A stretch of 64,000 nt of DNA from an archaeon. Lineage in GTDB: Archaea > Thermoproteota > Nitrososphaeria > Nitrososphaerales > Gagatemarchaeaceae. The position numbers and the translations under genes were made by a program. Under the pieces are notes generated by a model that was given only the letters and a program-made list of their open reading frames with translations, did no database searches and was not told where the DNA came from. The DNA lies in assembly GCA_021819035.1 (NCBI GenBank), contig JAKASL010000001.1:806001-870000 (forward strand), read 5' to 3'. This document shows, piece after piece, positions 11,165-17,051 of this stretch. Position 1 is the stretch's first letter. Each line of letters starts with the position of its first letter.

Positions 11165-12241
11165 TTGAATTTCTCGGAGAGGCCTGTCCTGGTCTTCTGG
11201 GAGACCACCAAGGCCTGCCCCCTCTCCTGCGTCCACTGCAGGGCGTCGGCCATCACCGGGCCGGTCCCGGGGGAGCTGACCACCGAGGAGGGGTTGAGGG
11301 TGGTCGACCAGGTCCGCTCCTTCGGCGGCCGCCCACCTGTCCTCGTCTTCACCGGCGGGGACCCCATGATGCGCCCCGACCTCCCCAGGCTGCTGGCCTA
11401 CGCCAGGGACTCGGGGGTCCCCTTCGCCGTCTCCCCGGCGGTCAGCCAGAGCCTAACGGACGGGGCGCTGGAGGGGCTGCGCGACGCGGGGGCGTCGTCG
11501 ATCTCAATCAGCCTCGACGGAGCCCGCCCGGAGACCCACGACTCGATAAGGGGGGTGGCCGGGACCTTCGAGAGGACGGTCGACAGGGTCAGGGCCGCCA
11601 GGGCCCTCGGGCTGAGCGTCCAGGTCAACACGGCCGTCATGCGGTCGAACCTCCGCGAGCTCCCCGCGATGCTCCGCCTGGTCAGGGAGCTGGGGGTCAA
11701 GGTCTGGGAGCTCTTCTTCCTGGTCCAGGTCGGGCGCGGGACGGGGGTCGCAGACCTCACCCCGGCGGAGTACGAGAGCGCCTGCAACTTCGCCTACGAC
11801 GCCTCGCGGCTAGGGCTCGTCGTCAGGTGCGTGGAGGCGCCCTTCGTCAGGAGGGTGGCGAAGCTGAGGGGAGGAGGGGACGACTACTGGCGGGACAGGA
11901 CCTACCTCGAGCTGAAGGAAGGCCTCGGGGGCGCCCAGGGGCCGTCGACGCTGAACCCGAGGGGGACCCTTGACGGGGACGGCATACTCTTCGTGGCCCA
12001 CGACGGGACCATCCATCCGGGGGGGCTCCTCCCGGTCCCGCTGGGGAACGTAAGGTCGGACGACCTGGCGACTGTGTACAGGGGAGACCCTCTGCTGAAC
12101 AGGATACGAAGGAGGGAGTTCAGGGGCCCCTGCGGGGCCTGCGCCTACGCGGACGCGTGCGGAGGGAGCAGGGCAAGGGCCTACGCCCACAGCGGCGACC
12201 CGCTCGGCTCGGACCCGGCGTGCCTCCTGGCGGGGGCATAG
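11165..12241 (+). CDS. Radical SAM/SPASM-domain protein
   Basis: A 358-residue radical SAM enzyme. The 4Fe-4S cluster motif ACPLSCVHC (C-x3-C-x2-C) is near residue 18. GGDPMMRP is the GGE-like SAM-binding motif with Asp in place of Glu. ISLDGARPETHD follows, and a C-terminal cysteine group (CGACAYADACGG) forms a SPASM-like auxiliary cluster. The layout resembles heme d1/AhbC-AhbD-like and peptide-modifying SPASM proteins, and the exact reaction cannot be told. TTG 11165 is the start, because the GTG at 11153 runs into a stop. GTTAAATA at 11124-11131 is the promoter. A CopD-like membrane protein follows 16 bases later. Confidence 0.9.
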   Translation: MNFSERPVLVFWETTKACPLSCVHCRASAITGPVPGELTTEEGLRVVDQVRSFGGRPPVLVFTGGDPMMRPDLPRLLAYARDSGVPFAVSPAVSQSLTDGALEGLRDAGASSISISLDGARPETHDSIRGVAGTFERTVDRVRAARALGLSVQVNTAVMRSNLRELPAMLRLVRELGVKVWELFFLVQVGRGTGVADLTPAEYESACNFAYDASRLGLVVRCVEAPFVRRVAKLRGGGDDYWRDRTYLELKEGLGGAQGPSTLNPRGTLDGDGILFVAHDGTIHPGGLLPVPLGNVRSDDLATVYRGDPLLNRIRRREFRGPCGACAYADACGGSRARAYAHSGDPLGSDPACLLAGA

Positions 12242-12743: not shown

Positions 12744-12796
12744 CCCCTCCGCCCACCACAACCCCAATAAGCGTGGCCCACGCACGGTCTGCCCGG

Positions 12797-13072
12797 TTGA
12801 TCCGCGTCCAGCTGAGCGGCCAGCTCAAGGAGTGGTCAAGCGGCATGTCGCGGGTGGACGTCGAGTCCGGCCCTGACGTCATCTCCGTGGTGAGGGCACT
12901 CGACGCCAGGTACCCGGGCCTGGGGGGGAGGATAGTCGACGACCAGGAGAGGATCAGGCCGCACGTCAACGTCTTCGTGAACTCTGAGAACTCCAAGGAG
13001 CTGGGGAGGGAGCGGGCCCAGGTGAGGGACGGGGACACGGTCCACATCCTCCCCGCGGTGTCCGGGGGATAG
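12797..13072 (+). CDS. MoaD/ThiS-family small sulfur-carrier-like protein
   Basis: A beta-grasp protein of about 91 residues ending in VSGG, the Gly-Gly tail that is adenylated and thiocarboxylated in MoaD/ThiS/SAMP proteins. The motif VRDGDTVHILPAVSGG is diagnostic. TTG 12797 is preferred to GTG 12773, because the first strand (IRVQLSGQLKEW) then begins at residue 2 and an AATAAGC box near 12766 lies at the leaderless distance. The gene ends 12 bases before the BNR-repeat gene, with which it forms an operon. Confidence 0.85.
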   Translation: MIRVQLSGQLKEWSSGMSRVDVESGPDVISVVRALDARYPGLGGRIVDDQERIRPHVNVFVNSENSKELGRERAQVRDGDTVHILPAVSGG

Positions 13073-13084
13073 GGGGAGGGACTG

Positions 13085-14161
13085 ATGGGGCAGAAGGTAG
13101 CGCTGATGGTGGGGACGAAGAAGGGCGCCTTCGTCTTCACGTCGGAGGGGAGGAGGGGGTGGAAGCCCTCGGGGCCGTATTTCAAGGGGGATGAGGTATA
13201 CCACGTGGCCTACGACCCGCGGAGCGGGAATTTCCTGGCGGCTGTCCTCAGCGGGCACTGGGGCCCGACGATCGCCTCGAGGCGGGGGCTCGAAGGGGAG
13301 TGGAAGGTGACGAAGACCCCTCCGAAGTTCCCCAAGGCCTCAGGGCTGACGGTCGCCAAGGCCTGGCAGATAGCGCCGGGGACCCCAGACCAGCCAGGGG
13401 TGGTCTACGCGGGGGTCGAGCCGGCGTGCCTCTTCAGGTCAGACGACGGCGGGGTGTCGTGGAAGGCCAACGAGCCGATGCTCAACCATAAGACGAGGAA
13501 GAAGTGGACCCCCGGGGGAGGAGGGCTCTGCCTCCACACCATACTGGTCAACGAGAAGAGGCCGAAGAGGGTGGTCGTCGCCATCTCCGCAGTCGGGACG
13601 ATGGTGAGCGAGGACGGAGGCGAGACTTGGGGGTTCAAGAACAGGGGGGTCCTGGCCGACTTCCGCCCGGACAAATACCCGGAGTACGGGCAGTGCGTCC
13701 ACAAGCTCGCCATCAACCAGTCGCGGCCTGACGTGATATTCCAGCAGAACCATTGCGGCGTGTACAGGAGCGACGACGCGGGGGAGAGCTGGAAGGACAT
13801 CAGGAACAACCTCCCCTCGAGGTTCGGGTTCCCGGCCGCGGTGGACGCCAACGACCCCAGGCGCTTCTACGCCGCCCCCCTCGAAGGAGACTTCGCCAGG
13901 GTCGCCCCCGGGGGCCACTTCGCCGTCTGGGGGACGGACAACGAAGGGAAGGAGTGGGCCCCCCTCGACGCGGGCCTCCCGAAGGCGTCCTACTACGACG
14001 TCCTCCGCGACGCGATGGTGACAGACCAGGAGGACCCGTGCGGCGTCTACTTCGGGACCACCACGGGGCAGCTGTACGCGAGCCGCGACCAGGGGAAACA
14101 CTGGAGCGCAGTGGCTGACTGGCTCCCGCCCATCCACTCGGTCTCTGTCTCCGCTGTCTGA
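13085..14161 (+). CDS. BNR-repeat (sialidase-like/VPS10-type) beta-propeller protein
   Basis: A 358-residue beta-propeller. Repeated Asp-box motifs are visible: SDDGGVSWKA, SEDGGETWGF, SDDAGESWKD, TDNEGKEWAP and SRDQGKHWSA. There is no signal peptide, so it is probably cytoplasmic. It lacks the sialidase arginine triad in any obvious form, so glycosidase activity should not be assumed. A good ribosome site (GGGGGAGGGACTG) precedes ATG 13085. It directly follows the MoaD-like gene, a pairing that suggests joint function. Confidence 0.88.
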   Translation: MGQKVALMVGTKKGAFVFTSEGRRGWKPSGPYFKGDEVYHVAYDPRSGNFLAAVLSGHWGPTIASRRGLEGEWKVTKTPPKFPKASGLTVAKAWQIAPGTPDQPGVVYAGVEPACLFRSDDGGVSWKANEPMLNHKTRKKWTPGGGGLCLHTILVNEKRPKRVVVAISAVGTMVSEDGGETWGFKNRGVLADFRPDKYPEYGQCVHKLAINQSRPDVIFQQNHCGVYRSDDAGESWKDIRNNLPSRFGFPAAVDANDPRRFYAAPLEGDFARVAPGGHFAVWGTDNEGKEWAPLDAGLPKASYYDVLRDAMVTDQEDPCGVYFGTTTGQLYASRDQGKHWSAVADWLPPIHSVSVSAV

Positions 14162-14231
14162 CCCAGGGCCGCCGCTCCCCCGCGCCTTCAGCAGGGTGTA
14201 AATAGTGACACGCCGTCGCTACCTCGATCTC

Positions 14232-17051
14232 TTGGGGACCTGGGGGCGTTCGGCGGCCGACTTCGACACGGGAGGGGGGAAGCCGCGGCGGACCCGCCTG
14301 TACGCGGCGGTTGCGCTGTTCGTGGCCATAGCCGCGGCCGCGGGGCTCTACGCCTCCTACGAGCTCCTCGTCTGGCACGTCTTCGAGGAGACCTACGCGG
14401 CGAAGCTGGGGCTGGATTGGTTCGGCACCGTCTTCTTCGGGGGGTACGCCTTCGTCGTCCCCGCCGTCTTCGCCTTCGTCGTGATCTACCCGTTCCCAAG
14501 GCGGAGCGACTTCTTCGCCCTGCTCAGGGCGGTGAACGACAGGCGCCTGGAGTACGGCGGCCTGGAGGCTGGGAGCGACGGGCCCTCGGCCGGGGGCGCG
14601 ACGTCGAGGAACATCTGGGCCGCCTGGCAGGGGGTGAAGTGGGTCGCCGCCTACGTCGCGGCCTACTACCTCCAGGGGTTCTTCTTCTACCCCAACGTGA
14701 CGGAGACCCTGGAGTTCGACCTGCACGGCATCGGGTCCTGGGCCCAGGTCCCGCGGCTCTTCGCCCTCCCCCTCTTCCCGGCCTCCGGGAGCGGGCTGGT
14801 CTCGCTGGTCCCGACCATGGAGACGCAGTACTACCTCCTGGTCGCCGCCGTCGGCTCGGTCCTGCTCGTCCTGGCGGCGAGGCTCTCGCTGAGGCTCGTG
14901 ACCGACTACCTGTACCGGAAGACCAACGCCTGGATCATAGACCTCCTCGTCGTCGGCCTGCTCGTCGGCGCCTCCGTCTGGCTGGGCGCCCCCTACTGGC
15001 TGATGAACGCCTTCACCCCCTACGTCTACGGGTTCCTGTTGACCGTGATGTTCGGCCTCGCCTACGGGGTGATGTACTTCCGGCTCTCGGGGAAGGGGCT
15101 GGTCCCCATAAACAAGCGGAGGCGGACCCTGGTCCGGGTCGTCGCCGTCGTGGTGGTGGTCCTCCTTGTGGCCAACCTCGGCTCCGTCGCCTTCATAGGG
15201 GTCAACTGGAACAACAACTGGCTCGGCTACTCCTGGACCCCCCAGGTCCAGAAGCAGATCAACGTGACGAGGTGGGCCGCTGGGCTCGAGGGCGTCAGCA
15301 CCAGCGACGTGGCGTCCGTCCCTCAGGGGAACGTGAGCCAGATCCTCGGGCTGGTCCGGCAGTGGGACCAGAACGCCTCGCTGATTCGGAGCGAGGCGGA
15401 GATAGGGGTCAACTACCTGTCGATACCGAGCTCCCAGATCGTCTACCTCAACGGGCAGCAGTACTGGGTCCAGCCTACCACCATCAGCTACCCGCCGGGG
15501 CACACCGACTGGATAAGCGAGCACCTCATCTACACACACGCCGACAGGGTCATCGTCATAAACGCACACACCGGGGGCTACTCATCCCTGAGCCAGGTCC
15601 TGGGCCTCCAGGCCAACAGCTCCTTCGACAACCCGCTCATCTACTACGGCCAGGGGTCCGGGTTCAACAACAACGTCTACGTCAACGTCAAGGGGGAGCC
15701 TGCGCAGGTGGGGAACGTGACATACCAGGGGAACCCAGACTACATCCTCTCCGGCGCCCAGCGGGCGCTCTGGTTCTTCGTCAGGGGCCCGACCACCTGG
15801 GGGTTCGCCTTCAGCCCGCCCCAGAACAGCATCGAGATGCTTGTCAACAGGGACGTGATCAACAGGGTGTCCCAGACCCTGGTCCCCGGCCTGGTGGCTG
15901 ACCCGCAGACCTTCCTGGTCACCGACGGCTCCCAGCTCTACTTCGCGGTGATGGTCTACATCAACTACCCCCTCCAGACGGGGTTCGCCCAGGCCGACTA
16001 CCTGAGGAACTTCGCCGTGGTCCTGGTCAACGTGAACGACGGGAGCATGCACCCCTACCTGGTCAACAACTGCTCCTCGTTCCTCTGCGGTTTCTTCAAG
16101 CAGTACTACCCGACATGGAACCGGGCCCCCCCGGCCTGGCTGGTCCCCCAGCTCCGCTACCCCGAGCAGCTCCTGGGGACGCAGACTGCCCCAGGCCAGC
16201 TAGACGCCGACTTCTACTACCACGTGGACACCCCACAGGTCTGGAGGTCTGGCTCGGACTTCTACGAGAGGCCCTCGGGTACCTACGTCTACTACGTCCT
16301 GGTGAACAACGGGACGCAGGTCTCCTACGTCGGGATCCAGCTGGCTGAGTTCAGCAACTCCCCCGGGCACAACCTCGGGGGGATCTACGTCGTCTACGGG
16401 GGCTCTGACCTCGGGAAGACGTACCTCTATCAGGTCAACCCGTCCTCCAACTCCACCGAGAAGCTGTTCGGCCCCTCGGCCGCGCTGTCGGCGGTCACCA
16501 CCAACCCTCAGATCAAGGAGCAGATGACCCTCCTGAACAACCCGACCCAGGGGAACGTCCTCCCATACCTCATCGGAGGGCAGCTCTACTACTTCATCCC
16601 ATACTACGTGAACGCCGGCGCCTCGGCCAACGTCATCACCAAGCTGGCGTTCATGGCCGTGGTCGACGCGAGCAACGGCGTCTCCGCCTACGGGACGTCC
16701 TCGGCCGTCGCCTTCGCCAACCTCCTGGGGAGCGAGAACAGGACCGCGCCCATCGTCCCTGGGACTGTCACGATCGGGGACGTGGCCGCCGACTTCCGGT
16801 CCGCCGGCTACGACGTCAGCCAGCCGAGCTTCGTAAACGTCGACGTGGGGTACCTCACGGCGACAATATCTCTGAGCAACGCCACCGCCCCCTCGGTGCA
16901 GGCGGCCGTCTCCTCCTTCGTCTCAGAGTACGCGGCCCCGGCCCACGCACAGACCGTCTACGAGTGGACCCAGGGGAACAGCACCGACTTCGGCGTCATA
17001 ACGGCCTCGGGGGGGCTCTCCGAGGCCTACTACATGCAGGTCGTCGGCTGA
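14232..17051 (+). CDS. UPF0182-family large membrane protein
   Basis: A protein of about 939 residues of the UPF0182 (PF03699) family. Seven or so membrane helices occupy residues 20-330, followed by a 600-residue external domain rich in Tyr, Asn and glycosylation sequons (SWTPQVQKQINVTRW, HTDWISEHLIYTHADRVIVI). The function of the family is unknown. GTG 14205 is a possible start, but a TGTAAATAG box (about 14197-14205) abuts it. The in-frame TTG 14232 lies at the usual leaderless distance and is preferred. The length agrees with the family (900-1,000 residues). Confidence 0.88.
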   Translation: MGTWGRSAADFDTGGGKPRRTRLYAAVALFVAIAAAAGLYASYELLVWHVFEETYAAKLGLDWFGTVFFGGYAFVVPAVFAFVVIYPFPRRSDFFALLRAVNDRRLEYGGLEAGSDGPSAGGATSRNIWAAWQGVKWVAAYVAAYYLQGFFFYPNVTETLEFDLHGIGSWAQVPRLFALPLFPASGSGLVSLVPTMETQYYLLVAAVGSVLLVLAARLSLRLVTDYLYRKTNAWIIDLLVVGLLVGASVWLGAPYWLMNAFTPYVYGFLLTVMFGLAYGVMYFRLSGKGLVPINKRRRTLVRVVAVVVVVLLVANLGSVAFIGVNWNNNWLGYSWTPQVQKQINVTRWAAGLEGVSTSDVASVPQGNVSQILGLVRQWDQNASLIRSEAEIGVNYLSIPSSQIVYLNGQQYWVQPTTISYPPGHTDWISEHLIYTHADRVIVINAHTGGYSSLSQVLGLQANSSFDNPLIYYGQGSGFNNNVYVNVKGEPAQVGNVTYQGNPDYILSGAQRALWFFVRGPTTWGFAFSPPQNSIEMLVNRDVINRVSQTLVPGLVADPQTFLVTDGSQLYFAVMVYINYPLQTGFAQADYLRNFAVVLVNVNDGSMHPYLVNNCSSFLCGFFKQYYPTWNRAPPAWLVPQLRYPEQLLGTQTAPGQLDADFYYHVDTPQVWRSGSDFYERPSGTYVYYVLVNNGTQVSYVGIQLAEFSNSPGHNLGGIYVVYGGSDLGKTYLYQVNPSSNSTEKLFGPSAALSAVTTNPQIKEQMTLLNNPTQGNVLPYLIGGQLYYFIPYYVNAGASANVITKLAFMAVVDASNGVSAYGTSSAVAFANLLGSENRTAPIVPGTVTIGDVAADFRSAGYDVSQPSFVNVDVGYLTATISLSNATAPSVQAAVSSFVSEYAAPAHAQTVYEWTQGNSTDFGVITASGGLSEAYYMQVVG

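Follow-up and report, generated by a model that had tools for sequence, protein, structure and literature searches.

Many bacteria and a few archaea have neighbouring genes for a small ubiquitin-like sulfur carrier of MoaD type and an Asp-box beta-propeller, which points to a two-protein pathway that has not been described. In this study, we analysed the pair in a 64,000-nucleotide stretch of an archaeal genome (the window; the genome is 1.67 Mb and 88 percent complete), where a Gly-Gly-ending carrier gene is followed after 12 bases (13073-13084) by the propeller gene. Both open reading frames and their spacing agree with the original prediction made for this DNA (Table 1). We consider the chances about even that the two proteins form a dedicated sulfur-carrier and acceptor module, in which a CysO-type carrier would hand sulfur to the propeller. 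The genes are adjacent across phyla, the carrier has CysO-like ancestry, the genome encodes an E1-rhodanese protein, and the propellers share a set of conserved residues. The open literature, which leaves most subscription papers outside its coverage, yielded no description of a carrier-propeller pair, in keeping with the earlier view of the pair as unexplored; nor did term searches of the accessible portions of comparative papers on these proteins.

Table 1. Features of the carrier-propeller locus, with positions in the window
Feature	Position	Strand	Basis
Possible archaeal TATA-like box, AATAAG, about 28 bases before the TTG	12766..12771	+	Also conserved in L016
Alternative carrier start, GTG	12773	+	First possible start of the ORF
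MoaD/ThiS-family (CysO-like) carrier, 91 aa, C-terminus ...VHILPAVSGG	12797..13072	+	Pfam, NCBIfam and PDB matches; tree
Ser-Gly-Gly at carrier C-terminus, presumed thiocarboxylation site	13061..13069	+	Sequence; Gly-Gly conservation
Shine-Dalgarno-like GGAGGG ahead of propeller ATG	13075..13080	+	Sequence
Asp-box (BNR) seven-bladed beta-propeller, 358 aa, 3b7f family	13085..14161	+	Pfam and PDB matches
Trp94 (88/88), near inner-strand start	13364..13366	+	Alignment and AF2 model strands
His151 (88/88), near inner-strand start	13535..13537	+	Alignment and AF2 model strands
His206 (88/88), near start of the next blade's inner strand	13700..13702	+	Alignment and AF2 model strands
Gln221 and His223 (88/88), end of strand 2 / loop 2-3	13745..13753	+	Alignment and AF2 model strands
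Arg272 (86/88), loop after strand 2	13898..13900	+	Alignment and AF2 model strands
Arg308 (88/88), just before inner strand	14006..14008	+	Alignment and AF2 model strands

The TTG codon is the better-supported start of the carrier, because the nearest relative locus (L016) conserves it and has CTG at the position of the upstream GTG in a by-eye alignment. The AATAAG element suggests that the pair may have its own promoter. The pair is probably its own transcription unit, since the TTG and the AATAAG element are shared with L016 and the two upstream genes were not found there. These two, a radical SAM and a CopD-like gene, were accordingly rejected as members of a conserved operon with the pair. 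In the window, the pair is flanked by the CopD-like gene and an ORF of 948 aa (14205-17051), which looks membrane-like by eye, has no Pfam match and is 84 percent identical to its counterpart beside the L016 pair. The radical SAM/SPASM gene (11165-12241, same strand) encodes a protein that scores over the TIGR04053 cut-off.

An alignment-based scan of genome contigs gave at least 569 relatives, and a MoaD-like gene was adjacent at 56 of the best 80, which were the loci examined. Six of 10 plasmid loci examined also have the adjacent gene, and together with the window these make 63 pairs in total. The two genes lie within 20 nt of each other in 43 of the 63 and abut or overlap in 22. In evenly drawn phylum samples, in which the window has less influence on the choice of loci, the propeller was matched in 52 of the 199 genomes of Acidobacteriota and 15 of the 299 of Pseudomonadota; the carrier adjoins the propeller at 27 of the 30 Acidobacteriota loci checked (out of 56 matches) and at 13 of 15 Pseudomonadota loci. 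These two samples rule out chance adjacency. The original prediction was staked on adjacency being conserved in other genomes, and that is what these counts show.

The pairs in the propeller tree come from Acidobacteriota, Gemmatimonadota, Actinomycetota, Pseudomonadota, Chloroflexota, Ignavibacteriota, Rokuibacteriota, Eiseniibacteriota, Planctomycetota and Verrucomicrobiota among the bacteria and from Thermoplasmatota and Nitrososphaerota among the archaea, a tally of twelve phyla that rests on record titles, many of them for metagenome bins, so that single titles may be wrong. This spread and the predicted complex described below support the earlier proposal of a two-gene module. The nearest loci are archaeal. 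The family is not general to the window's phylum, in which 2 of 300 genomes match at 1e-10, namely the window's own and one weak match. The carrier gene comes first in the four archaea and the four beta/gamma-proteobacterial plasmids of the propeller tree and the propeller gene comes first elsewhere, a pattern that needs two changes. A comparison of neighbours across the loci found none besides the carrier that is common to several phyla; the other shared neighbours are mostly limited to close relatives, for example in Streptomyces. Counting against a dedicated module are the propellers that have no adjacent carrier, which occur in Streptomyces, on three Rhodobacterales plasmids and in several Chloroflexota.

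The window's carrier exceeds the curated cut-off of Pfam ThiS (PF02597; 45.5 bits, cut-off 22.5). In the PDB it is matched best by 4n6e_B, 2m19_A and, in third place, 3dwg_C; 3dwg is CysO, and chain B of 4n6e is the carrier of the BexX-CysO system. BexX-CysO serves 2-thiosugar synthesis, in which the sulfur of a CysO-type carrier goes to an unrelated enzyme. The carrier of that system is the closest PDB match of ours, but the BexX acceptor has another fold than the propeller. In a carrier tree (66 rows, 93 columns) that included 38 of the 63 BNR-linked carriers and omitted also L137 (a duplicate) and L145, a 99/96 branch parts MoaE-linked MoaD from the BNR-linked and the CysM/JAMM-linked carriers. 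On the CysO side of this branch, which holds the BNR-linked carriers, the order is unsettled on 93 columns. The carrier is therefore CysO-like and set apart from MoaE-linked MoaD, with which it has the MoaD family in common. Another type of carrier, which is more divergent and ends in ...GA(I/V/L/M)AGG, lies beside the Acidobacteriota propellers L168-L180 and L182 (profile E ~1e-8 to 1e-12).

The position in the tree bears on the idea that the carrier is simply the MoaD of the genome's molybdopterin synthase and the propeller an accessory of the Moco pathway. In the 88 percent complete genome, the carrier is the only ThiS-family protein over the cut-off, and the E1-rhodanese gene adjoins MoCF_biosynth and XdhC_C genes, both of which would suit such a role. 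Nevertheless, this role is very improbable in our judgement, given the branch that sets BNR-linked carriers apart, the lack of any MoaE match in the same 88 percent, and the genome that carries L016 (relative G300), which has a second, separate MoaD. Because this second MoaD adjoins MoaE, the pair's carrier is a separate paralogue in that genome, and for the same reason the missing 12 percent of the window's genome may hide MoaE and a MoaE-linked MoaD.

A sulfur-carrier system requires an E1 and a sulfurtransferase. The original prediction noted that neither adjoins the pair, which is right locally; the genome nevertheless has one protein that combines both, its sole ThiF match, an E1 with a C-terminal rhodanese (C3:452153-453298) about 366 kb from the pair. 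MoeZR, which has the same build, is reported to sulfurate CysO and MoaD proteins (PMC3227635). An E1 homologue was found at 1e-20 in 26 of 30 genomes tested, and 20 of these aligned over both the E1 and the rhodanese parts. Three of the 30 gave no E1 match at this threshold and a fourth gave only rhodanese, which counts against a dedicated module. A known system close to the pair is CysO-CysM-Mec (a JAMM peptidase) with MoeZ: both have a Gly-Gly-ending CysO-like carrier and a genomic E1-rhodanese, and some genomes with the pair have a JAMM gene beside CysM- and CysO-like genes. The difference lies in the partner, which is an Asp-box propeller instead of a PLP enzyme, and in the neighbourhood, as no CysM or JAMM gene adjoins the window's pair.

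The terminal Gly-Gly is kept in 62 of the 63 adjacent carriers, as the exact end in 50 and with residues beyond it in 12. The one carrier without it, in Nonomuraea (L007, 5093-5383), ends in PALA and still lies beside a propeller, which is a further point against a dedicated module. Four of the 12 tailed carriers run into unrelated proteins, namely a methyladenine glycosylase (L039), a PNPOx-like protein (L051), an HhH-GPD protein (L052) and an LMW phosphatase (L069), and the sample of Acidobacteriota contains a fifth fusion, to an EF-Tu-type GTPase (L155:3-1505, minus strand). These fusions recall those of ubiquitin and could be either real or lost-stop errors of draft assemblies. A precedent for fused carriers is mycobacterial MoaX, a MoaD fusion that is cut after the Gly-Gly; cutting is required, and the accessible text of that report does not identify the protease (PMC4326299).

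A JAMM peptidase is encoded at E<1e-8 in 17 of the 18 genomes with tailed carriers. With a stricter threshold (E<1e-12), a strong JAMM was found in 10 of 12 tailed against 15 of 45 tail-less genomes of the first set (Fisher p 0.003), in 6 of 6 against 15 of 20 of a second set made up of Acidobacteriota only (p 0.30), and in 16 of 18 against 30 of 65 with the sets combined (p 0.001). When phylogeny was controlled by a sign test on eight independent pairs of the first set, the link was not significant (median p 0.375 at E<1e-12 and 0.125 at E<1e-8). Thus, a tail predicts a JAMM, though lineage may explain much of the link, and the prediction does not work in reverse. Among the eleven tailed genomes for which JAMM neighbourhoods were retrieved, five (L100, L102, L103, L106 and L107) have the JAMM with CysM-, CysO- and E1-like genes, and by eye it adjoins a CysM-like gene in L099 and L104. 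The JAMM neighbourhood of the archaeon L111 resembles that of a proteasome/exosome by eye, and L101, L105 and L108 gave no clear context.

The tails and the JAMM peptidases raise the question of ubiquitin-like modification, in which the carrier would be attached to proteins in the manner of SAMPs and Urm1 and the propeller would serve as an adaptor that binds the targets or that binds or releases the conjugate. The five fusions and the near-universal JAMM of the tailed genomes fit this role. So does the score of the window's carrier on NCBIfam SAMP1 (NF041918), which at 58.7 bits is just below the cut-off of 60 and brings it near SAMP1 and the archaeal Ubl proteins, as do the peptide binders among Asp-box propellers, YCF48 and sortilin. 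The accessible text of a comparative study of archaeal Ubls (PMC2948915) contains no propeller, sialidase or BNR term. We regard modification as unlikely, however, as the pair has no dedicated E1 or peptidase, the JAMM neighbourhoods in five tailed genomes are those of a sulfur pathway, and the invariant His/Arg cluster of the propeller resembles an active site and not merely a binding face. The original prediction had left sulfur transfer and protein modification side by side; the CysO-like carrier, the genomic E1-rhodanese, the conserved Gly-Gly and the presence of JAMM where the Gly-Gly is internal are consistent with its proposal, and sulfur transfer is the best-supported role for the pair.

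The propeller matches Pfam Sortilin-Vps10 and BNR above their cut-offs, and its residues 5-354 match PDB 3b7f at E=8.6e-73. The structure 3b7f (Reut_B4987 of Ralstonia eutropha) belongs to the same propeller family and was solved alone, with no carrier partner described in the accessible part of the paper, which gives it a tunnel of 9 by 11 A and a function not known (PMC2716378, where it is once printed as 3bf7). The AF2 model of L031 described below aligns with 3b7f at Z 51.5 over 356 residues with 37 percent identity, followed in the structure list mostly by GH74 xyloglucanases at Z of about 27-28. The Foldseek list also includes sortilin and YCF48, which are distant in sequence, have other partners and are alike by fold only. 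No MoaD-type complex stood out in the lists of solved structures, for which mainly residues 10-377 of the L031 model were compared. Several propellers, many from Acidobacteriota (L031, L033, L035, L045, L051, L052, L060, L069 and others), carry Lys/Arg-rich C-terminal tails that are absent from the window's protein.

Eight residues are invariant in 88 of 88 propellers, a count that, like the propeller tree, excludes three incomplete or unusable propellers (L023, L042 and L054): Trp94, Trp141, His151, Ser168, His206, Gln221, His223 and Arg308. Lys13, Arg138 and Arg272 are kept in 86 of 88. In the AF2 model, three inner strands have Trp94, His151 or His206 as their second or third residue, Gln221 and His223 end a second strand, and strand position suggests that the invariant residues line the mouth of a top-face tunnel. 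The three invariant histidines may hold a metal. In known Asp-box glycosidases, catalytic and ligand residues lie on the top face (PMC2716378).

Another explanation is that the propeller is a glycosidase, as annotated, beside a MoaD gene that is there by chance. Records do carry the annotation sialidase or exo-alpha-sialidase, and GH74 propellers follow 3b7f in the ranking of folds. We give this explanation very little credence, as the adjacency spans phyla in both gene orders, the GH74 scores are far below that of 3b7f, and no signal peptide is evident on the window's propeller. The catalytic set of GH33 sialidases consists of an Arg triad, a Tyr/Glu pair and an Asp, and the window's propeller matches a PDB sialidase B only at E ~0.1. 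No invariant Asp or Glu was seen among the conserved residues mapped to the top face, and this fits the earlier remark that the propeller lacks an obvious glycosidase site.

At several loci, the propeller stop codon is followed by the carrier in frame, so that a glycine in place of the stop joins the two into a naturally linked pair. The AF2 model of one such pair (L031; 516 residues, one stop read through, 109-row alignment) has a pTM of 0.88 and a mean pLDDT of 91.6, with a disordered linker at 383-419 (pLDDT under 50). From assumed per-part values, the expected pTM is ~0.76 without docking and ~0.89 with docking. As a control, a Streptomyces propeller read through into a downstream uracil-DNA glycosylase, named by eye, gave a pTM of 0.64 against a no-docking estimate of 0.65; its alignment is shallower, at 34 rows compared with 109, and its partner is less well folded. 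The pTM of the L031 pair thus predicts that the carrier and the propeller bind each other; the last six carrier residues have a mean pLDDT of 66, and the position of the tail is unsure. Binding alone would be enough for a propeller that is a non-enzymatic partner and sequesters, stabilises or senses the carrier, and peptide binding by some Asp-box propellers agrees with this. We find such a role rather improbable, as the invariant residues are the same in propellers that have no carrier next to them, a sign that the propeller does more than hold the carrier.

We return to the sulfur-carrier and acceptor module. In this model, a shared E1-rhodanese of the MoeZ type, encoded elsewhere, would activate and thiocarboxylate the C-terminal glycine of the carrier. 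The carrier is predicted to dock on the propeller, and its Gly-Gly tail would enter the top-face tunnel, where the invariant His/Gln/Arg/Trp set would use the thiocarboxylate, most likely putting sulfur on a small molecule. More tentatively, and with somewhat more doubt than confidence, we suggest that the Asp-box propeller is a new enzyme class that acts on the tunnel-bound C-terminus of the carrier, for example by taking its sulfur, and that some lineages make the carrier as a ubiquitin-like precursor, fused to unrelated enzymes, from which a JAMM peptidase releases it.

The acceptor enzymes known to receive sulfur from carriers of this family are few. If our model is true, the propeller would add an acceptor whose fold is quite different and which is conserved in soil archaea as well as in Acidobacteriota, Actinomycetota and Pseudomonadota, and many common microbes would have an overlooked metabolite or modification. 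A widespread protein that now goes by the names sialidase and glycosyl hydrolase would gain a function, as would the 3b7f structure, released in 2007. As the pair is small and is found in culturable laboratory bacteria, among them Cupriavidus metallidurans CH34 (L011), it is directly testable.
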